From: Ruania alkalisoli
Lineage (GTDB): Bacteria > Actinomycetota > Actinomycetes > Actinomycetales > Beutenbergiaceae
NCBI RefSeq assembly: GCF_014960965.1
Contig: NZ_CP063169.1
Location: 529,581-593,580, forward strand
Length of the DNA: 64,000 nucleotides
Direction: 5' to 3'
Position 1 is the stretch's first letter, and each line of letters starts with the position of its first letter. Position numbers and translations under genes: made by a program. Positions 28,469 to 43,123 of this stretch are shown here, one piece after another. The notes beneath the pieces are model-generated. The model saw only the letters and a list, made by a program, of their open reading frames with translations. It was not told the DNA's origin and made no database searches.

Positions 28469-31400
28469 ATGTCCTCAGTTTCCCTGCGCACGCCTCGTCG
28501 TGGCGCTCGTGCCCTCGCTTCCGCGGTAGCAGCCGCGTTGCTTGCGGGTCTCGGCTCGGGCGCCGTCGCAGCCCCGGCCTCGGCTGCCGGTCTTGCGCCC
28601 TTCGACGCGGTCGACCCGTTCATCGGCACCCAGCTCGACCTCAGCGAGAACAAGAGCAACGACGCCTACGGCAACACCTTCCCCAGCGGCGCACTCCCGT
28701 TCGGGATGGTCCAGCCCAGCCCGACGACGTACAACACCGACCCCGACGCTCACCACCTGGTGCGTGAGAAGGGCGGGTACGAGTACACCGCGGACCAGAT
28801 CCGTGGCTTCGGGATGACCCGGTACTCCGGCACCGGCTGCCACGAACGCTTCGGCGGGTACGAGTTCCCGACCACGCCGTACGTGGGCGGGCTGGAGGAG
28901 GGTGTGCTCCCGGTGAGCCCGGCAGTCGACCACCGCAGCTACTACCTTGACTTCAGCCACGAGAACGAGGTGGCTGAGCCCGGTTACTACTCGGTCGAGA
29001 CCGACAATGGTGTGCAGACTGAACTGACCGCCACGACGCGCACCGCCGTCAGCCGGTTCGCCTTTCCCGAAGGCAGTGACAGTGCCACCGTGCTCGTGGA
29101 CGCCTCGGGTGCGAACAACCGGATCCACGACGTCGCACTGGAGATCGACCCGGAGAACCAGACCGTCAGCGGATGGACCTACGGTGCCGACGTCTGCGAC
29201 GACGGCACCCACTACCGCGCGTACTTTTCCACCACCTACGACCAGCCGTTCGAGTCCTGGGGTACCTGGGACGGTGCGACGATGACGGCGGAGGGCACCG
29301 GGGCAGAACGCGTCACCGGGGACGAGGGGATGGACCTGCGGCACCAGGTCGGCGGCTGGATCACCTTCGCTGACGGCGCCGATGTCACCGCCCGTACTGG
29401 CTTCAGCTACGTGAGCGTCGAGAACGCCGCACTGAACCGGCAGACCGAGGCGGCCGACCTCTCCTTCGACCAGGCGAGGGCTCAGGCGCAGGACGCTTGG
29501 GAGAGCGCGCTCGGTGTGGTCGACGTCGACGGCGGCAGTGACGAGCAGCGGATCCAGCTGTACACGGCGCTCTACCATTCACTCCTGCACCCGAACGTGC
29601 ACCAGGACGTCAACGGCGAGTATCGCGGCAAGGACGGCGAGATCCACACTGTCGAGGCAGGGCAGAACCACTACAAGATCTTCGCCGGTGGCGGCTGGGA
29701 CATGGTGCGAAGTCACGCCCAGCTGCTCGCGATGCTCTTCCCCGAGGTCGCTGACGACATCACCCAGACGATCGTCGAGCAGGTCCAGCAGCGCGGTGCG
29801 TGGGACGCGTTCCGCGGCGTGGACAGTTACCAGAACCTCATCGCCACCTTGGATGCGTTCGGTGCCACCGACTACGACCGCCAGTGGGTGCTCGACTCCA
29901 TCGCATCCTCGCAGGGCTTGCCCTCGAACGATTCCGGCCGGTTCCAGGCCTTCCAGTACTTCGCCACCGGCATGATCGAGAACGGCAAGGGTGGCGACGC
30001 TACCTCGCGCATCCTGGACCACGCAGTCACCGACTTCTCCGTGGCCCAGTTGGCGGCCCGGTTGGGCGAGGAGGACGTTCACGACACGTTCATGGCGCGG
30101 GCGCAGAACTGGCGGATGGTGTTCGACCCCGAGACGCAGGAGATCCGCCCGCGCTCACGCAACAGCTTCGACCGCGGCTTTAACCTGGCCGAACGCGGCA
30201 ACCAGTTCCACCAGTCCACCGGCTACCAATGGAACTGGCACGTGCAGCACAACCTCGGGTCTCTGATCGAGATGCGCGGCGGCGCACAGGCATCCGAAGC
30301 CGTGCTCGACCGTTTGATGGCCGATCTCGACGCCGGCGCCTATGACCAGACCGGCAACTACCTGTCGAACCAGCCCGCGCTGAGCACGCCGTGGGTCTAC
30401 CACTGGCTCGGTAAGCCCCACGAGACCACTGACGTGCTGTACCGGGCCATCGACGAGATGTACGGCACTGACCCGGCCGGTCTGCCCGGCAACGACGACC
30501 AGGGATCGCTCAGCTCCTGGGTGGTGTTCGCTCACCTCGGCCTCTACCCGGCCATCTACGGCACGGCGAATCTCTTGGTGAGCGCGCCCATGTTCGATGC
30601 CATCACGATCTCCAGCGCCGGTTCGGAGCGCGTGTACCAGATCGAGGCGCCCGGCGTCTCCGACGGTGCCCGCTACACCACTGGCCTGAGCGTCAACGGC
30701 ACACCTCAGACTGCCTCGTGGGTGGGGGAGGGCGTTGCACGTGACGGCGGAACGCTGACCTTCGAGATGTCCGCCACCCCGGGGGCTTGGGGTACTGGCG
30801 AGAACGACGTGCCGCCGTCGTACACGGACGGGATGAACGCACGCAACAACGTCGGCACGGTGCCGCACGGCACGGCCAACATGGGCTCGATGGACCTCAG
30901 CGACTGGGCGTTCTCGCGTGAGGGCTTGGCGGCCGTGGGCGCCGAACAGGGCGCCCAGCTGCCGCACCCCGACCACGAGAGCCTCGTCTTCACCTGGCCC
31001 GCCACTGAACCCGGTGAGCCTGACAACTGGATTCCGCACGGCCAGAGGATCGAGGTCGAACCGCAGCAGGCGGCGACGATCTCCTTCCTGGGCCTGGCCA
31101 CCAACGGTCCGTCCGAGGCAGCCGCGACCGTCATCTATACCGACGGATCCACTCAGGACGTGCCGGTCTTCCTCACCGACTGGGCGCAGAGCCCTGGCGG
31201 GGGCAACAGTGTCGTCGTCGAAGTGGGCAACCGGGTCAATCGCAACGGTGGTCAGGGCGGTGGTACGTTCCGCGTGTTCGGAACGCGGCCGGCCGCGCTG
31301 GATCCGGACAAGACCGTCGAGGCTGTCACGCTTCCGGGCGCCGACCACGGCGGCTTGATGCACGTCTTCGATGTGGCTCTCTCACCCGAGAGCTGGACGG

Positions 31401-34009
31401 ACCCGAACGCTCCTCTCGGGGACCCGGAACGGATCGTGCTCAACCCCAGCGAGGACCCCTCGAGTTCGCAGTACGTCACCTGGCGCTCACGCAGCCAGGG
31501 CCCGCTCACGGGGTCGGTCGAGGTGCGACCGGCTGCGGGTGGCGAAACTGTGACCGTCGCCGCTGAGCAGAAGCCCGAGCGGTCCGTGGGCGGTTACCCG
31601 TCCCGCAGTCACAGTGCCCTGCTCAACGGTCTGGAGCCAGGGACGACGTACGAGTACCGGGTGGCCTCCGGCGACCGCTGGAGCGAGTGGTTCAGCTTCA
31701 CCACCGCGGCCGACTCGTTCGAGCCCTACACGTTCCTCTACTTCGGAGACGCGCAGAACGGGATCCCAACGATCTTCCCGCGTGCCATCGACGCGGCCGT
31801 GGCCGACCACCCCGACGCGGAGCTCGGGCTCTACGCCGGCGATCTGATCGACCATGCGCCGAACGACCAGCAGTGGACCGACTGGTTTGACGCCACTGAG
31901 CCGCTGCGCACGGACCGGCAGGTGCTGACCACACTCGGCAACCACGAGATCGGTGGCCAGCCGTTCATCGAGGCGTTCACCGACAGCTTCGAGTTCGCCT
32001 CGAACGGTCCGGTCCCGGCTGATGCGCGTGAGTACGCCGCCACCCACGGCGAGCACCTCGCACAGGTACTGCAGGACACGGCGTACGTCACGGACTATCA
32101 GGGTGTCCGCTTCGTGACCCTCAACGCCAACCACGACGACATCTGCCCTATCTCTCGCCCCCCGGGCCAGCCGGACGACTGTGAGGTGAACCGCCATGCC
32201 TGGTTCACGGCGCAGGCGCACTGGCTCGAGCGCGTGCTGCAGGAGAACCCGCACCAGTGGTCGGTGGTTCTGGCCCATCAGCCGGTCTTCTCGGTCGGAG
32301 TCTCCAGCGGTGGTCTGCGCAACGAGGTCATGTACCGCGAGCACATCCTCCCCGTGCTCGAGCGCAACGACGTGGACCTGGTGCTGCAGGGCCATGACCA
32401 CACCTACGGGCGGGGCGTGCACAACTCCTCGACCACCGATATCGACGGTGTCAACGCCGGGCCGGTCTACGTGGTCGCGAATGCCGGGGAGAAGATGTAC
32501 GACCTCCCCTCGGATGAGGACAACCGCTGGACGCAGAACCATGCGGACCTGCAGGTGCGGGTGCAGGACGTAGCGACCTACCAGTCGATCCGGGTGGAGG
32601 AGAACACACTCACGTTCGAGTCGATCGCGACCTGGGTGGCGCCGCGCGGCGCCGGTGGGCCGGTCGCTGCCGGAGACGTCGTGGACGCCTTCACGGTGAC
32701 CCGCTATGACGACGGCACCAAGTGGGTGACCGACGCCGGAGTTGATGCCCCGGGCGAGGACGAGCCGGCGCAGAACTTGCCGTTGCCCACGCCCGAGGAA
32801 TTCGATGCCGACACCTACGGAGAGGTCTCCTGGGAGGACGACTTCTCCGAGGACCGGATCGAGGAGTACACGGTCTACGCTGCCGGCTCGGAGCCGGCAG
32901 CCGAGGTCGCGGTCGACAGCGAGTCGGGTCTGCTTACCATGTCTGCGGACGACCGCGCATGGACGCAGCTCGCTCTGCCGGTGGATGCCGCCGAGCAGTT
33001 CGCCCTCGTGGTCGAGCCGGAGGCATTCCTCGACTCCGATGTGGCCGAGGACAGCCTCTTCCTGGGCATGACTGCCGGCCCGGACGAGCGCGTGCACTCC
33101 TGGTACAACCACAGCCGGGGCGAGCACGGGATCGATGTGCGGCTCGGTGGCGGTAACGATGGGCTCGCGGCCGGACCCGGCCGTCCCTATCCACTCACGT
33201 GGGCGCCCGGTGACCGGTTCGCCATCCGGGTTGATCACGGCGAGCTGACGGTCTGGCTGGAGCAGGAGGGTGAGTGGGAGCTGATCCGGCGCGGTCTGCT
33301 GGACCTCACGATCGACGCCGAGGCCTATGCCGACTGGGCTCCGTCCGTGGCGGTCCGCCAGGATGGTGGCGAGTTGAGTCTGGATCGGATCACGCTGCTG
33401 CTGCCATCGGACGACCCGGATCCAACTGACCCGGATCCGACTGACCCGGATCCGACTGACCCGACGGACCCGGACCCCACTGACCCCACTGACCCGGATC
33501 CGACTGACCCGACGGACCCGGACCCCACTGACCCCACTGACCCGGGCGAGCAGCCGGGCACTGAGCCGTCCGAGTCCGATCTGGTGGACGAGCTCCGCGA
33601 CACCATCGAGGTGCCCGCCACGATCGTCCGCGGTGGCGATGTGACAGTCGGTCTCGCGCAGGGGGTCGCCGGCGACGTGACCGGCTACCTCTTCTCCGAC
33701 CCGGTAGCGCTGGGGACGCGGACCGTCGAGGACGCCTCGGTCAGCTTCGCGGTGCCCTCCGACGCCACGCTGGGCGAGCACCGTCTGGCCGTTTACGACG
33801 CGGACGGCGCTCTCATCGGCTGGTCGCAGACCAGGGTGATCGACGCCGTCGGAGATCAGGGTCCGGGACAGGACGAGGGCCCCGGACTTGACCTTCCCTC
33901 CACCGGCGCCAGCATCGTGGGCGCTCTGGGACTGGCGCTGCTGCTGCTGATGATCGGAGCGCTGCTGGTGCTCCGCCGTCGACGGCTCCTGACGACCTCG
34001 CAGGGTTGA
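28469..34009 (+). CDS. Cell-wall-anchored GH92 mannosidase - purple acid phosphatase-like fusion
   Basis: This 1846-residue surface enzyme has, in order: a signal peptide (1-40); a GH92 alpha-mannosidase module from VDPFIGT (48-54) to about 770, including GNDDQG with the base Asp residues 676-677; a beta-sandwich sugar-binding-like region (about 790-980); and a purple acid phosphatase N-domain (from 987). The metallophosphatase follows, with metal ligands visible at Asp1094, GD1125/Asp1128, GNHE (Asn1158, His1159), His1270 and GHDH (His1309, His1311). After it come a lectin-like domain (about 1450-1645), an Asp-Pro-Thr repeat linker, and an LPSTG sorting motif at 1809-1813 with a membrane helix and Arg tail. 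The GH92 general-acid Glu is Gln582 (FHQSTGYQW). Known GH92 enzymes trim mannan and N-glycans; those with Gln here cleave mannose-1-phospho-6-mannose, so stepwise removal of phosphomannan caps is inferred. ATG 28469 is preferred over TTG 28451. Confidence 0.9.
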   Translation: MSSVSLRTPRRGARALASAVAAALLAGLGSGAVAAPASAAGLAPFDAVDPFIGTQLDLSENKSNDAYGNTFPSGALPFGMVQPSPTTYNTDPDAHHLVREKGGYEYTADQIRGFGMTRYSGTGCHERFGGYEFPTTPYVGGLEEGVLPVSPAVDHRSYYLDFSHENEVAEPGYYSVETDNGVQTELTATTRTAVSRFAFPEGSDSATVLVDASGANNRIHDVALEIDPENQTVSGWTYGADVCDDGTHYRAYFSTTYDQPFESWGTWDGATMTAEGTGAERVTGDEGMDLRHQVGGWITFADGADVTARTGFSYVSVENAALNRQTEAADLSFDQARAQAQDAWESALGVVDVDGGSDEQRIQLYTALYHSLLHPNVHQDVNGEYRGKDGEIHTVEAGQNHYKIFAGGGWDMVRSHAQLLAMLFPEVADDITQTIVEQVQQRGAWDAFRGVDSYQNLIATLDAFGATDYDRQWVLDSIASSQGLPSNDSGRFQAFQYFATGMIENGKGGDATSRILDHAVTDFSVAQLAARLGEEDVHDTFMARAQNWRMVFDPETQEIRPRSRNSFDRGFNLAERGNQFHQSTGYQWNWHVQHNLGSLIEMRGGAQASEAVLDRLMADLDAGAYDQTGNYLSNQPALSTPWVYHWLGKPHETTDVLYRAIDEMYGTDPAGLPGNDDQGSLSSWVVFAHLGLYPAIYGTANLLVSAPMFDAITISSAGSERVYQIEAPGVSDGARYTTGLSVNGTPQTASWVGEGVARDGGTLTFEMSATPGAWGTGENDVPPSYTDGMNARNNVGTVPHGTANMGSMDLSDWAFSREGLAAVGAEQGAQLPHPDHESLVFTWPATEPGEPDNWIPHGQRIEVEPQQAATISFLGLATNGPSEAAATVIYTDGSTQDVPVFLTDWAQSPGGGNSVVVEVGNRVNRNGGQGGGTFRVFGTRPAALDPDKTVEAVTLPGADHGGLMHVFDVALSPESWTDPNAPLGDPERIVLNPSEDPSSSQYVTWRSRSQGPLTGSVEVRPAAGGETVTVAAEQKPERSVGGYPSRSHSALLNGLEPGTTYEYRVASGDRWSEWFSFTTAADSFEPYTFLYFGDAQNGIPTIFPRAIDAAVADHPDAELGLYAGDLIDHAPNDQQWTDWFDATEPLRTDRQVLTTLGNHEIGGQPFIEAFTDSFEFASNGPVPADAREYAATHGEHLAQVLQDTAYVTDYQGVRFVTLNANHDDICPISRPPGQPDDCEVNRHAWFTAQAHWLERVLQENPHQWSVVLAHQPVFSVGVSSGGLRNEVMYREHILPVLERNDVDLVLQGHDHTYGRGVHNSSTTDIDGVNAGPVYVVANAGEKMYDLPSDEDNRWTQNHADLQVRVQDVATYQSIRVEENTLTFESIATWVAPRGAGGPVAAGDVVDAFTVTRYDDGTKWVTDAGVDAPGEDEPAQNLPLPTPEEFDADTYGEVSWEDDFSEDRIEEYTVYAAGSEPAAEVAVDSESGLLTMSADDRAWTQLALPVDAAEQFALVVEPEAFLDSDVAEDSLFLGMTAGPDERVHSWYNHSRGEHGIDVRLGGGNDGLAAGPGRPYPLTWAPGDRFAIRVDHGELTVWLEQEGEWELIRRGLLDLTIDAEAYADWAPSVAVRQDGGELSLDRITLLLPSDDPDPTDPDPTDPDPTDPTDPDPTDPTDPDPTDPTDPDPTDPTDPGEQPGTEPSESDLVDELRDTIEVPATIVRGGDVTVGLAQGVAGDVTGYLFSDPVALGTRTVEDASVSFAVPSDATLGEHRLAVYDADGALIGWSQTRVIDAVGDQGPGQDEGPGLDLPSTGASIVGALGLALLLLMIGALLVLRRRRLLTTSQG
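33417..33545 (+). repeat. Tandem coding repeat for the Asp-Pro-Thr linker
   Basis: Short units of the form GACCCGGATCCGACT and GACCCCACT are repeated about a dozen times and encode DPDPTDP-type repeats. They separate the lectin-like domain from the LPSTG anchor of the GH92-phosphatase protein and probably act as a stalk spanning the cell wall. Length variation between strains is likely. Confidence 0.85.
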
Positions 34010-34018
34010 GCGACGCGG

Positions 34019-34058
34019 CCGGCTGCCGCATGCGGAACTCACCGCGCGCGGCAGCCGG
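34019..34058 (+). terminator. Hairpin after the GH92-phosphatase gene
   Basis: Perfect 11-base arms CCGGCTGCCGC (34019-34029) and GCGGCAGCCGG (34048-34058) around an 18-base loop begin 10 bases after the stop. No T-run follows, as is common in high-GC genomes. Confidence 0.6.
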
Positions 34059-34078
34059 ACTGTCCTAGGCTCTCCGGT

Positions 34079-34930
34079 ATGCACCAGGGGTTCAGGCTCG
34101 TGGCCGCCGGAGCTGCGATAGCGATGGGGACGGCGATGGTCGTCGCGTGCTCGGTGATCGGGATCGAGCAGCAGGAACCGATCACGTGTGAGGGGGAGTC
34201 GCCTCCCGCGACGGCACCTGGCGAGTCGTTCCCGTTGCTCACCATCGCGCAGGGGGAAAGCCCCTGGGCCCTGGTGACGGTCGTCTACGCCGACGGAGTG
34301 GTAGTCCAGGCCGAGAACGGTTCCAGTGCGGTGGAGCCGGTGACTGAGAGTGCCGGCGAGAGGACAGACGACAGTGCCGATAGCCCTGGCCGGGTCAGAC
34401 CGGATGATGCGGCTGGGCCCTGGCGGACCGGCTACCTGCTCCCGTGCGCGGTCTCCGAACTGCGGGAGGTGGCCGAGCGGGCGCTCTACGGCGGCCCCGA
34501 GTTCGGCCGCATCGATCGCCCGGACCTGGACTGGACCTACCTGCGCTACGACAACGGGGTCTCCACCGCTTCGGCCGAGGTGCACGGGCACGGGACCGGC
34601 TTCTCCGACGGTCTGAGCTGGTCCGAGCGTCGCGCCCGCGACGCGCTGCGGGAGGTCAGCGACCTGCTTCGCGTCAACATCGTCTCCACCGGCGAAGCCG
34701 TGCCTATCGCTGCCGTCCAGCTGGACGGTGAACTTCCCGACGGCGCAGCCCTCCCCTCCACGTGGCCTGGGCCACCTGCTGCCGAGGTGCTCGGGGAGGC
34801 CGGGTGCGGGGTGCTGCCCGAGGACGTCGCCGAGGAGGCGATCCGGTACGGGGTCGAGCAGGGCCTGGGCGACGCGGGAGCCGCACTGAACCTGCGGGCG
34901 CTGCCCCCTGGTGTGGCCGGCTGCGAGTGA
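34079..34930 (+). CDS. Hypothetical lipoprotein
   Basis: I do not recognise the family of this 283-residue protein. The N-terminus is a lipoprotein signal with lipobox MVVAC (Cys24). The mature part is acidic, with a low-complexity stretch at residues 80-105 and four or five Cys residues (for example CEGE, LLPCAV and the final GCE) that could form disulfides. It lies between the GH92-phosphatase gene and another lipoprotein gene, without obvious link to either. Confidence 0.65.
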   Translation: MHQGFRLVAAGAAIAMGTAMVVACSVIGIEQQEPITCEGESPPATAPGESFPLLTIAQGESPWALVTVVYADGVVVQAENGSSAVEPVTESAGERTDDSADSPGRVRPDDAAGPWRTGYLLPCAVSELREVAERALYGGPEFGRIDRPDLDWTYLRYDNGVSTASAEVHGHGTGFSDGLSWSERRARDALREVSDLLRVNIVSTGEAVPIAAVQLDGELPDGAALPSTWPGPPAAEVLGEAGCGVLPEDVAEEAIRYGVEQGLGDAGAALNLRALPPGVAGCE

Positions 34931-35069
34931 TCGTCCGCGGACGACGTCCGGGCAACTGAGGGTACGTGAGCAGGCACACACGGGCACCGCTGCCCATTCC
35001 CGCCGTACCGCGCCGCGCCTAGCGTCGACGATGTGAGCCGGGGAGGTCCCGGTACGAGGGAGAACACCG

Positions 35070-35750
35070 TTGAAGAACGTCACCACGATCCGGGTCCGTC
35101 ACGCTGCTGTCGCAGCCGGAATGGGGCTGCTGCTGGCACTGACCGCGTGCAGCGAGCCGGCGAACGAGGACGCTGCGGCCACCGGTTCCGAGGAGAGCGG
35201 TGCCGAAGCAGCCGCCGACGACGGCGAGGACACGGCGACCGAGGAGAGCGGCGAAGCAGAGGACGAAGGGGCTGAAGACGAGGGCGCTGAGGACAGCGAC
35301 GAGCAGGAGCAGCCCAGTGGCGATGTCGTGGCCCCCGCCGCGGACTTCGACCCGTGCACTGTGGTCTCCGCCGAGCAGGCCGGCGATGCTGTCGGGTTCG
35401 CCGTCGGGGACGGGGAGTCGGACGAGCTGATGGGATCGCAGACCTGCACGTTCACCTCCAGCGAGGGCCTCGCCGCGAGCGTGCTCGTGCAGTGGATCCC
35501 TGTCGAGGATGACTTCGACACCACGGTCGCCTCGGCGACGAGCGCCTACGACGACGTCAGCGAACCGGAAGACGTGGTGGTGGCCGGAACTGCCCGCACG
35601 GTCGCACTGACCGGGGAGACCATGGGCATGCCCGCAGCCGTGGTCCTCTCGCAGGTCGAGGGCGGCTTCTTCCAGGTGGTGGTGATCGGTGAGGACGGCC
35701 AGACCGATCAGGCCGTGGCCCTCACCGAACTCACCGTGAGCCAGGTCTGA
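35070..35750 (+). CDS. Acidic lipoprotein with DUF3558-like domain
   Basis: This 226-residue predicted lipoprotein has lipobox ALTAC with Cys27, followed by a very acidic low-complexity linker (residues 31-85, mostly Glu, Asp, Ala). A compact domain starts at FDPCTVVSAEQAGDAVGF and includes QTCTFTS, the paired Cys pattern of DUF3558-type actinobacterial lipoproteins. The start is TTG at 35070 after GAGGGAGAAC. Function unknown; relatives are surface lipoproteins. Confidence 0.7.
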   Translation: MKNVTTIRVRHAAVAAGMGLLLALTACSEPANEDAAATGSEESGAEAAADDGEDTATEESGEAEDEGAEDEGAEDSDEQEQPSGDVVAPAADFDPCTVVSAEQAGDAVGFAVGDGESDELMGSQTCTFTSSEGLAASVLVQWIPVEDDFDTTVASATSAYDDVSEPEDVVVAGTARTVALTGETMGMPAAVVLSQVEGGFFQVVVIGEDGQTDQAVALTELTVSQV

Positions 35751-39685: not shown

Positions 39686-42109
39686 CTACCGCTGCGGGAC
39701 GCGCCGGGTCGGTGCGCGGCGGGCCGGGTGCGTCACCGGCAGCACACCCGTGGGGGCGGGGATCGCGAGGCGGACTGGCTCCTCTCCGGCCAGTTCGACT
39801 GGCGTGCCGTGGTGCGAGGTGCTGAGCGACTCTCCTTCGACCAGCCGGTAGGTCGCGGTGTCGGTGCCGTCCTCGCGGCGAACGTCCACCTCGACCACCG
39901 CACCGTTCCACCGGATGCGGAAACGCAGGCGGGTCAGCTCCTTCGGCAGCCGGGGCGCGAAGGTCACCTGCCCGCCGTGATCGCGCATACCGCCGAACCC
40001 GGAGACAGCGACCTGCCACGATCCACCCATGGAGGCAATGTGCAGGCCGTCGTCGACGTTGCCGTGCAGATCGCCTAGGTCCACCAGCGCCACTTCGGCC
40101 CAGTAGTCGTAGGCGAGTTCCAGGTGGCCGGTCTCGGCTGCCAGCACTGCTTGTGTGGCTGCAGACAGCGAGGAGTCCCGGACGGTCCGGGCCTCGTAGT
40201 AGGCAAAGTTCCGTGCCTTCTGCTCGGGAGTGAACAGGTCCCCCCGCAGTTGCATCGCCAGCACGAGGTCGGCCTGCTTGATCACCTGCTTGCGGTAGAT
40301 CTGGAAGTAGGGGAAGTTCAGCAGCAGCGGGTAGAAGTCATCCGATGTGCCCTCGAAGTCCCACTCGTCCCTTCGGGTGAATCCCTCCGACTGGGCGTGA
40401 ACCTGCAACTCCTCGTCGTAGGGGATCGCCATGGCAGCAGCAGCCCGGCGCCACCCGGCCACTTCCTCCTCCGTCACCCCGAGCGCGGCGGCGCTCTCCG
40501 GGTTGCGCTCGCACGCGGCAGCGGCAGCGGTGAAGTTCGCCTGGGCCATGACATTCGTGTACAGGTTGTCGTCCACGATCGCCGTGTACTCGTCCGGCCC
40601 GGTGACCCCATCGATGTGGAACGACCCGTCGGTGTTGAAGTGCCCCAAGGACATCCACAACCGGGCGGTCTCGGTGAGCAGCTCCGTCCCAGGCCCGCGG
40701 TCGAACTCGCCGTCGCCCGTCGCGGCCACGTACCGGGCGGTCGCGTCCGCCACCGCGGAGTTGACGTGGAAGGCCGCCGTTCCCGCCGGCCAGTAGCCCG
40801 AGCACTCCTTCCCGGTGATCGTGCGCCACGGGAATGCCGCCCCGTGTAGCCCCAGTTCGGTCGCCCGCTCGCGTGCTTGTGGCAGGGTGTCGCGCCGCCA
40901 CGTGAGGTGGTCGCGGGCCGCCTGCGGCTTGGTGTAGGTCAGCATCGGGAGCGCGAAGAGGTCGGCGTCCCAGAAGGTGTGCCCGTCGTACCCGATGCCG
41001 CTGAGTCCCTTGGCGCCCAGACCCTGACCCTCGGCACGGGCCGAGCACTGCAGCACGTGGAACATCGAGATCCGTACTGCCTGCTGCAGCCCGGGATCGC
41101 CGTCGATCTCCACGTCGGCGTGCTCCCAGAAGTCGTCGAGGTACGCGCGCTGCTTCGCGGCGAGCTCGTCCCAGCCGATGAGCTTTCCGACGGCCAGCGC
41201 TGCCTCCACCTGGTCACGCAGGGCGGGACCGGACCGGCGGTGTGACCAGCCGTACGCCAGATACTTGACCATCCGCAGCTTCGACCCCTTGGGCAGCTGC
41301 GCCGTCACCGTGTATCGGGCGAGGTCCTTGTCCGCCTCGATCGTGGTCCGCGCGCCCTGGGGCACTTCCAGCACGTGGTCCATCCCGACCGCCATCCGCA
41401 ACTTGCTGCGCCGGGTCCGGTGCACCAGCACCGCCTGCTGGTCGCGTGCCGCGGATGCCTCTGATTTGAGCGGACGCTCGAGTACGGCCGCGTCCCGCGG
41501 GTCCGAGGAAGGGGCCGCGTTCTGCTCGTTGGCGAGCAGGTCGGAGTACAGAGCGACGTAGACGTTGTCGTCCAGTGCTTCGACCTCATAGTGGATCGCG
41601 GCGAGTGACCGGTGGGCGAAGGAGACCAGCCGGCGGGAGGTGACCCGCACCGACTGCCCGTTCGGTGATGTCCACTCGGTTGAGCGGTCGAGGGTGCCGG
41701 TGCGCAGATCCAGGGCGCGTTCGTGGGAATGGGTGGTCCCATACCGCAGATCGAAGGGGGAGTCGCCGACGAACAACCGGATGAGCTTGCCGTCGGTGAC
41801 GTTCACGACCGTCTCACCGGACTCGGGGAACCCGTAGCCGGACTCGGCGTGCGGCAGAGGACGCTCTTCGTAGAAGCCGTTGATGTATGTCCCGGGCACT
41901 GCCCGCGGTTCGCCTTCTTCCAGGGTGCCGCGCATGCCGAAGTGCCCGTTCGAGAGGGTGAAGAGCGTTTCGCTCGCCGCGATCTCGTCCGGCATGAGAC
42001 CGGAGCGTGTCAGCTTCCAAGGGTGGATGGCGTAGCCGTGCCGGGTAGTGGCGTAGGTGGTCGAGTCGCCGCTCTCACTGGTGGTGTGCTGACCGTGTCC
42101 GTTGGTCAT
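39686..42109 (-). CDS. Glycoside hydrolase family 65 disaccharide phosphorylase
   Basis: This 807-residue GH65 enzyme has an N-terminal beta-sandwich (to about 290), linker helices, an (alpha/alpha)6 catalytic barrel and a C-terminal sheet. Motifs include GHTFWDADLFALPML and VTGPDEYT with Glu507 as general acid. Family members phosphorolyse maltose, trehalose, kojibiose or nigerose to beta-glucose 1-phosphate and glucose. The start overlaps the stop of the upstream beta-phosphoglucomutase gene (42107-42111), so the pair forms an operon turning a glucose disaccharide into glucose 6-phosphate. Which disaccharide is not decided. Confidence 0.92.
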   Translation of the reverse strand: MTNGHGQHTTSESGDSTTYATTRHGYAIHPWKLTRSGLMPDEIAASETLFTLSNGHFGMRGTLEEGEPRAVPGTYINGFYEERPLPHAESGYGFPESGETVVNVTDGKLIRLFVGDSPFDLRYGTTHSHERALDLRTGTLDRSTEWTSPNGQSVRVTSRRLVSFAHRSLAAIHYEVEALDDNVYVALYSDLLANEQNAAPSSDPRDAAVLERPLKSEASAARDQQAVLVHRTRRSKLRMAVGMDHVLEVPQGARTTIEADKDLARYTVTAQLPKGSKLRMVKYLAYGWSHRRSGPALRDQVEAALAVGKLIGWDELAAKQRAYLDDFWEHADVEIDGDPGLQQAVRISMFHVLQCSARAEGQGLGAKGLSGIGYDGHTFWDADLFALPMLTYTKPQAARDHLTWRRDTLPQARERATELGLHGAAFPWRTITGKECSGYWPAGTAAFHVNSAVADATARYVAATGDGEFDRGPGTELLTETARLWMSLGHFNTDGSFHIDGVTGPDEYTAIVDDNLYTNVMAQANFTAAAAACERNPESAAALGVTEEEVAGWRRAAAAMAIPYDEELQVHAQSEGFTRRDEWDFEGTSDDFYPLLLNFPYFQIYRKQVIKQADLVLAMQLRGDLFTPEQKARNFAYYEARTVRDSSLSAATQAVLAAETGHLELAYDYWAEVALVDLGDLHGNVDDGLHIASMGGSWQVAVSGFGGMRDHGGQVTFAPRLPKELTRLRFRIRWNGAVVEVDVRREDGTDTATYRLVEGESLSTSHHGTPVELAGEEPVRLAIPAPTGVLPVTHPARRAPTRRVPQR

Positions 42110-42909
42110 CAGGACTCCTCGTTGGTCGATGTCTGGGGATGGCTGGGTGTCTGCTCGAGCGAGGAGCCGTTCGGGAGGAGCTCGCCGAGGTCGGCCACCA
42201 CGACGTCGGCGCCAGCCTCGGCCAGTGCGTGGGCGTGACCGAGGCGATCCACGCCGATCACGTAGCCGAAGTCGCCGGCGCGCCCGGCCTGGACCCCGGC
42301 GATCGCATCCTCGATCACGACCGCCTCACTCGGGGCCACCCCGAGTGCTTCGGCTCCGGCGAGGAAGGTGTCGGGCGCAGGCTTGCCCGGCAGGGAGCGA
42401 TCCGCGGCGATCACGCCGTCGATGCGCGCGTCGAAGAGGTCGATCAGCCCGGCGGCCGTGAGCACGGCTACTGCGTTGGCGGACGCGGTCACCACTGCCG
42501 CGGGAATCCCCGCCTCGCGAACGGATTCCAGGTAGGACACCGAGCCGGGGAAAGTCTCCACGCCGCGCTCGTCGAGGATGCGGCGCACATCGGCGTCCTT
42601 GCGGTTGCCGATCCCGCAGACCGTCTCAGCTTCCGGCGGGTCCTGCGGCGTTCCCTCCTCGGGGTGGATGTCACGCGAGGCGAGGAAGGTGCGCACGCCG
42701 TCGTACCGCCGTCGGCCATCGACGTGGGCGGCGTAGTCCGCCTCGGTGAACTCCGGCAGGCCACGCTCGGCCAGGATGGCGTCGAACGTCTCCTTCCAGG
42801 CAGCGAAGTGCAGCGTCGCGGTGCGCGTTAGCACGCCGTCGAGGTCGAACAGGCACGCACGCACGTGGGCAGGCAGACCGAGAGCGGCGAGAGTCTGGGG
42901 GGAGGGCAT
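42109..42909 (-). CDS. Beta-phosphoglucomutase family HAD hydrolase
   Basis: This 266-residue HAD protein has LFDLDGVLTRTATLHFAAWKETF as motif I with the beta-PGM type cap, then VVTASANAVAVL, GKPAPDTFLAGAEALG and VIEDAIAGVQAGRAG. It interconverts beta-glucose 1-phosphate and glucose 6-phosphate. The ATG at 42909 is chosen from the start of the conserved fold; no ribosome site is clear. The gene overlaps the GH65 phosphorylase, whose product is its substrate. Confidence 0.9.
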   Translation of the reverse strand: MPSPQTLAALGLPAHVRACLFDLDGVLTRTATLHFAAWKETFDAILAERGLPEFTEADYAAHVDGRRRYDGVRTFLASRDIHPEEGTPQDPPEAETVCGIGNRKDADVRRILDERGVETFPGSVSYLESVREAGIPAAVVTASANAVAVLTAAGLIDLFDARIDGVIAADRSLPGKPAPDTFLAGAEALGVAPSEAVVIEDAIAGVQAGRAGDFGYVIGVDRLGHAHALAEAGADVVVADLGELLPNGSSLEQTPSHPQTSTNEES

Positions 42910-43072
42910 GACGAGCACGCTAGTGCCGACGGGTGGGTGCATGTCGAGCCCTGGGCCGGGTTTCGTCGATCGTTGCTCTCCTGCAACATCGCCGCCACGC
43001 AGCCCGCGGCCGCCGAGGAGCCCGGCTGCGACGATTTGCCACCACGTCGCCGAGCCCGCACGCCCCGCTCCA

Positions 43073-43123
43073 CGGGCCGAAAGATTGACCCTTTGACCGC
43101 TCACGGGTCGATTTTTCGGCCCG
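43073..43123. repeat. Inverted repeat upstream of the phosphoglucomutase gene
   Basis: Arms CGGGCCGAAAGATTGACCC (43073-43091) and the complement at 43105-43123 pair with two mismatches. Related words (GGTCGACCCT, GGGCCCGTGGGCC) continue to about 43180, suggesting a second, partly decayed palindrome. The 327-base gap between the mutase and BCCT genes contains no gene. Confidence 0.55.

Follow-up and report, generated by a model that had tools for sequence, protein, structure and literature searches.

A GH92-metallophosphatase fusion of Ruania alkalisoli as a candidate two-step phosphomannan enzyme

Results and Discussion

A single chain carrying a GH92 module and a metallophosphatase

In the stretch of Ruania alkalisoli DNA analyzed here (64,000 nucleotides, hereafter the window), the open reading frame at 28469-34009 (plus strand; ATG start, TGA stop, 1846 aa) encodes a GH92 module, a beta module, a metallophosphatase resembling purple acid phosphatases (PAPs), a lectin-like module, a DPT stalk and an LPSTG anchor, as established by domain searches and full-length relatives. 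We propose, with a probability of about 0.72, that this protein is a secreted, wall-anchored enzyme working in two steps, namely the uncapping of phosphomannan followed by its dephosphorylation. Having Gln at the site of the catalytic Glu, the GH92 module would hydrolyse mannosyl-1-phosphodiesters; the likeliest are the Man-alpha-1-P-6-Man caps found on fungal phosphomannan, in which the leaving group, a phosphate, would need no protonation. Uncapping would expose a 6-phosphomonoester, which the metallophosphatase of the same chain would take off, yielding mannose, inorganic phosphate and a neutral chain end open to ordinary mannosidases. The cell may thereby gain sugar, phosphate or both.

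A signal peptide, judged by eye, occupies 28469..28591 (all features are on the plus strand). It is followed by the GH92 N-terminal domain (28610..29407; Pfam PF17678, aa 48-313, E 1.4e-55) and the GH92 catalytic domain (29423..30772; PF07971, aa 319-768, E 7.8e-104; also found by Foldseek), both scoring above the curated cut-offs, which assigns the module to glycoside hydrolase family 92. The beta module (30839..31423; aa 791-985) was recognized in the AlphaFold model, and similar stretches follow many GH92 domains; an earlier note on this DNA had taken it for a sugar-binding-like region, and the module is indeed present but matches no Pfam family. The phosphatase part comprises a PAP N-terminal, fn3-like domain (31424..31705; PF16656, Pur_ac_phosph_N, aa 986-1079, E 4.6e-20) and the metallophosphatase domain proper (31736..32407; PF00149, aa 1090-1313, E 5.3e-13). 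Towards the C-terminus lie the lectin-like, jelly-roll module (32789..33463, from the AlphaFold model), the DPT repeat stalk read from the sequence (33410..33544; aa 1648-1692), and the LPSTG motif (aa 1809-1813) with its hydrophobic span and basic tail (33890..33985). The NCBIfam match to the LPXTG anchor (aa 1809-1839) is marginal, its 16.4 bits lying just above the cut-off of 15.9; a genome search for sortases gave three matches, so that motif, hydrophobic span, basic tail and a genomic sortase are all present. Hence, the searches of the full protein bear out the claim of a GH92 module and a metallophosphatase on one chain with a DPT stalk and LPSTG.

The AlphaFold models of the GH92 and beta modules (aa 41-985; pLDDT 87.8) and of the phosphatase and lectin-like part (aa 970-1665; pLDDT 87.3) are both confident. 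Foldseek searches with the former returned GH92 structures, with BT3130 at the top and CcMan5 included, while the latter returned plant purple acid phosphatases and PhoD and, more weakly, GH43 and ERGIC-53 chains. These weaker matches probably stem from the lectin-like sandwich, and it is on them that the lectin-like identity suggested in the earlier note draws. A chance or artefactual frame was rejected: the plus-frame protein can be aligned with 22 relatives encoded at other loci, which share 42-87% identity with it across the GH92-phosphatase stretch; for the same reason, the overlapping minus-strand frame at 31487-35086 (1199 aa) was taken as a high-GC shadow.

A glutamine at the general-acid position

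We then focused our attention on the GH92 active site. Gln582 (codon 30212..30214, placed by alignments) aligns with the GH92 general acid, where the Glu of ordinary alpha-mannosidases is thus missing. The same residue is seen in CcMan5 from Cellulosimicrobium cellulans (PDB 2xsg, 4aq0), whose chains read LYQGTLW at the aligned site, the Gln being residue 536 of 2xsg as counted from the alignment. The CcMan5 study of Tiels et al. (2012) reportedly described Gln at the acid position. Glu is the reported general acid of ordinary GH92 enzymes (PMC5930347, PMC12858847), and exchanging it for Gln is reported to leave the fungal enzyme AnGH92A completely inactive on mannooligosaccharides (PMC12858847), which argues against ordinary mannosidase action of the window module and in favor of a substrate whose leaving group is a good one. 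CcMan5, in turn, is reported to target Man-PO4-Man (PMC5930347) and to uncap Man-P-Man (PMC9246025), the substrate of this precedent being yeast-type phosphomannan (PMC5930347, PMC9246025). The CcMan5-like Gln582 therefore supports the two-step reading.

Apart from the shared GH92 fold and Gln, the two proteins are distant: in a search of PDB sequences, the window GH92 scored 108.5 bits with CcMan5 and 240.7 bits with BT3130. The CcMan5 ortholog, itself flagged as a long branch, falls outside the window clade, in another part of the GH92 tree, where the Gln of the window type and that of CcMan5 appear to have arisen separately. This lack of close kinship speaks against the two-step reading. 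The link from Gln to uncapping is drawn from one reported enzyme, distant in sequence. Moreover, the CcMan5 PDB construct covers the GH92 part only, and the relatives of CcMan5 have CBM6 attached, joined in two genomes by a PAP2 phosphatase, whereas the window protein has a metallophosphatase. The guess that Cellulosimicrobium GH92 proteins may have similar tails holds, therefore, only in spirit.

In fold and overall sequence, the window GH92 is closer to the Bacteroides thetaiotaomicron enzymes (BT3130, BT3990 and others), BT3130 being its best PDB match, but these have Glu as general acid and their solved chains are listed without a phosphatase, whereas the window protein has both Gln and a phosphatase. 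The yeast-mannan pathway of this bacterium was reportedly described by Cuskin et al. (2015). There, phosphate-linked mannose is reported to be removed first, after which phosphatases remove the phosphate (PMC10154615); the same order of steps, with separate enzymes, favors the two-step reading. B. thetaiotaomicron is reported to use a GH38 and separate phosphatases inside the cell (PMC10154615), whereas the window protein would bring both modules together in one surface chain. The single-chain fusion, of whose description as one functional unit the earlier note was not aware, was not found described in the open-licence papers searched.

Genomic context and the likely substrate

No mannan operon was seen around the window gene in a scan of ten neighbouring window proteins, and searches of the genome gave five matches to GH38, a single weak one to GH76 and none to GH125. 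The weak GH76 and missing GH125 make trimming or phosphate harvest as plausible as growth on the whole polymer, and the earlier note's idea that the cell eats phosphorylated fungal mannan finds no support, as far as the whole polymer is concerned, in a GH76/GH125 set of this genome. These observations count against the two-step reading, and they would suit the same two activities acting on a natural substrate other than fungal mannan, such as glycans or lipids, bacterial or other, that contain mannosyl-1-phosphate linkages. We regard such a substrate as unlikely, given the yeast-type phosphomannan of the CcMan5 precedent, the five GH38 matches, and a GH81 gene, of a fungal-wall-glucan type family, close to the fusion of genome G610, which fits fungal walls. 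That gene was found by scanning ten neighbour proteins of the relatives' fusions, most of which, besides those of G610 and G005, were uninformative.

Directly upstream of the G005 fusion lies a 1681-aa protein of the 5'-nucleotidase/metallophosphatase type (L073:1862-6907, plus strand), with Lamin tail, weak endonuclease/phosphatase, metallophosphatase, 5'-nucleotidase and SLH domains, a neighbour that fits phosphate harvest. In G006, a frame of similar length sits in the same place. In addition, the only other GH92 of the Ruania genome lies outside the window (G000:C1:3338460-3343141, minus strand), has Glu at the acid position and is located about 2.4 kb from a GH38 match; it likely marks an ordinary mannoside locus.

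Fusions among relatives and their phylogeny

The family sample comprised 24 genomes. Besides the window genome, those with the full fusion are two congeners out of seven (84 and 89% identity) and two genomes of another genus (55 and 57%); its absence from the remaining five congeners weighs against the two-step reading. Wider scans revealed further fusions in G285, G580 and G610, and a frameshifted one in G588. Named records add Myceligenerans (two), Streptomyces (eight, one frameshifted), Phycicoccus, Cellulomonas triticagri and Sediminivirga luteola, a list that may overlap with the numbered genomes. A contig scan with one protein as query yielded no relative, and one with six fusions yielded 47 loci: 13 fusions with the window-type phosphatase (PAP-A), two with a distant metallophosphatase family of Microbacteriaceae (PAP-B), five unfused Gln-type GH92s, 24 Glu-type GH92s and three pieces lacking the acid position. 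The PAP-B fusions (L113, L114 and L070, the last from G264), of the Microbacteriaceae type, combine a window-type GH92 with a CBM-like domain and a different metallophosphatase. The earlier note had proposed counting GH92-metallophosphatase fusions: 23 intact ones were aligned (20 PAP-A, three PAP-B), with the frameshifted L119 and L225 left out, and two fusions with the non-homologous PAP2 come in addition.

The wall anchor is less constant than the enzymes, so that the proposed anchoring holds for the window protein, with its LPSTG and genomic sortases, but not across the family: Streptomyces fusions end directly after the phosphatase, without a wall anchor. The C-terminus of the G005 fusion (L006), as read from its translation, has S-layer-homology-like repeats instead of LPXTG; judged on this translation, the anchor is different there while the enzyme pair is kept.

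In a GH92 tree calculated with the acid column masked, the 31 window-type GH92s group together on a single branch (SH-aLRT 100); every one of them has Gln, and 20 are fused and 11 unfused. Over the whole tree of 106 rows, three changes are needed for Gln/Glu and seven for the phosphatase state, counts that cannot separate gain from loss. The tree was a quick one, calculated under LG+G4, and several of its branches were flagged as long, including that of the CcMan5 ortholog (L087); six Xanthomonas/Brevundimonas-type rows were kept, and L106, L110, L118 and L143 were left out. A quick tree of the phosphatases had 84 rows once pieces from eight loci that were short, truncated, duplicate or frameshifted had been removed. 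In it, the 21 PAP-A and three PAP-B fusion rows fall in two different starred branches, each among stand-alone phosphatases. From these separate branches, the phosphatase seems to have been joined to GH92, or replaced by another, more than once. Overall, related bacteria appear to have built the same pairing repeatedly, with different phosphatases.

In the census, in-frame phosphatases accompany Gln-type GH92s only

To avoid query bias, we surveyed GH92 places in 246 Actinomycetes genomes, 71 of which had a match. Among 117 frame pieces, 112 show the acid position (four pieces without the acid column and one short fragment were dropped), Gln being present in 16 and Glu in 96. Phosphatases share the frame in 5/16 Gln-type and 0/96 Glu-type frames (Fisher p 3.3e-5, uncorrected for kinship), and in 4/15 versus 0/95 when the window genome is left out. 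The five census fusions are those of the window, G580 and G610 (PAP-A) and of G579 and G491 (PAP2); the frameshifted G588 was counted as lacking a phosphatase, and frames at contig edges could hide one. The 55 Glu-type frames of at least 950 aa showed no phosphatase family in a Pfam scan, and the 41 shorter ones showed none by phmmer with three phosphatase queries. In a larger but query-biased set of 128 GH92 rows (spans under 600 aa and duplicates left out), 23 of 44 Gln rows and none of 84 Glu rows are fused. One Glu-type frame, among 17 rescanned with Pfam, also holds a GH76 domain; this different fusion would suit alpha-mannan breakdown.

That in-frame phosphatases accompany Gln-type GH92s only in the census, and come from three lineages, gives the two-step reading, together with the CcMan5-like Gln582, strong if indirect support. 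On the other side stand the 11 Gln frames of the census without a phosphatase, namely seven of the FAQGT type, two of the CcMan5 type, G588 and L243. The FAQGT-motif clade is a second Gln-acid group without a phosphatase in frame (L158, L159, L164, L168, L268, L276 and L294; also L051, L053, L054 and L175), and shows that Gln alone does not predict a phosphatase; it is a puzzle as to substrate and a good control for the Gln rule. Also against the two-step reading, no PAP-A or PAP-B gene was found beside unfused window-clade GH92s at 13 loci (L063-L069, L071, L109-L112, L120), within about 5-8 kb of flank where the contig allowed.

The CcMan5-type genes, present in five of 394 genomes of the class, all have Gln at the acid position. 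Two of them, in G579 (2342 aa) and G491 (2218 aa), combine a GH92 with CBM6 and, at the C-terminus, a domain of the PAP2 superfamily (34.9 and 41.5 bits, cut-off 27.2), which is a fold family different from that of PAP-A and PAP-B. This domain keeps K-x6-RP and PSGH, and R-x5-H-x3-D is readable with Asn before the Arg; we take these three elements to be the PAP2 motif, in which Ser usually precedes the Arg. The CcMan5-type GH92 of G203 has as its immediate upstream neighbour, on the same strand and with a gap under about 0.5 kb, a PAP-B gene with CBM6, an arrangement that again favors the two-step reading. In G532, the distance to the PAP-B gene, which is likewise upstream and on the same strand, is about 4.9 kb, and the stretch between contains other predicted genes, two of them on the opposite strand. 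No PAP-B gene was found near the CcMan5-type GH92 of G541, and no PAP-A, PAP-B or PAP2-type gene near the CcMan5 ortholog of G002 (order sample). A general proximity of PAP-B genes to GH92 was rejected (0/11 loci, L249-L259), so that G203 and G532 stand out.

It is also conceivable that the modules are uncoupled, the phosphatase being a general phosphate scavenger that shares the GH92 chain only for surface display. PAP-A is mostly stand-alone (31 rows versus 21 fused), a 5'-nucleotidase/metallophosphatase protein precedes the G005 fusion, and PAP-type phosphatases are often broad in substrate. The restriction of in-frame phosphatases to Gln-type GH92s in the census, from three lineages, speaks against this, and we rate such uncoupling a little below the already unlikely non-fungal substrate.

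Returning to coupled action, convergent domain fusion points to two steps of one pathway. Phosphatases of three lineages, one of which is not homologous to the other two, have been joined to Gln-acid GH92s, and the latter themselves seem to have more than one origin. We thus find it somewhat probable that the coupled removal of mannose and then phosphate from phosphomannan has recurred as a trait among bacteria. If so, the combination of a Gln-acid GH92 with a phosphatase would allow phosphomannan mining to be recognized from genomes, a mining that may serve to obtain phosphate no less than sugar, and GH92 specificity might follow a testable rule, read from one residue plus the attached phosphatase. 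Such proteins would also be candidates where mannose-6-phosphate on glycoproteins made in yeast is to be uncapped or erased; the making of lysosomal enzymes is reported to employ uncapping (PMC9246025).

Conservation of catalytic residues

Gln582 is invariant in all 23 aligned fusions, as are Asp676 and Asp677 (30494..30499), the conserved pair at the general-base site, a role assigned by comparison with published GH92 enzymes (PMC5930347, PMC12858847). That the GH92 module is a dead enzyme serving to bind mannose, as the inactive AnGH92A E-to-Q mutant (PMC12858847) might suggest, is highly improbable, because the base aspartates are invariant and CcMan5, reported active (PMC5930347), has the same Gln.

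The phosphatase module contains GD (1093-1094), GDLID (1124-1128), GNHE (1157-1160), H1270 and GHDH (1308-1311). Within these, D1094, D1125, N1158, H1270, H1309 and H1311, which we take to be metal ligands, are invariant in 23/23 fusions and match the D, GD, GNH, H, GHxH pattern. Invariance of the base aspartates and of these positions supports the two-step reading. The motif set, claimed to be complete and PAP-like, is so except for one residue: the fifth-position Tyr of GDxxY is a ligand that defines purple acid phosphatases, and it is Asp1128 here and Asp, Asn or Glu across all 23 fusions. The PAP N-terminal domain and the metallophosphatase fold of that family are present (Pfam, AlphaFold, Foldseek), but with Asp1128 in place of Tyr the enzyme is not expected to be purple, and the missing Tyr counts as a point against the two-step reading. 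The best Foldseek match of aa 970-1665, kidney bean purple acid phosphatase 4dhl (E 1.3e-21; TM 0.74 by target length), shares the fold with its N-terminal fn3-like domain, but identity is about 16% and the GDxxY Tyr of 4dhl corresponds to Asp1128.

Other observations in and near the window

A frame starting at about 63785 (plus strand) and running past the window end (L265:3366-10001, plus strand; at least 2212 aa) encodes another PAP-like metallophosphatase, with 96.9 bits to the PAP-B query; the match was also placed in a 2638-aa frame there. Moreover, a GH65 gene within 39686-43104 (minus strand) meets a HAD-hydrolase gene at its end; the two together recall a disaccharide phosphorylase and its phosphoglucomutase-like partner.
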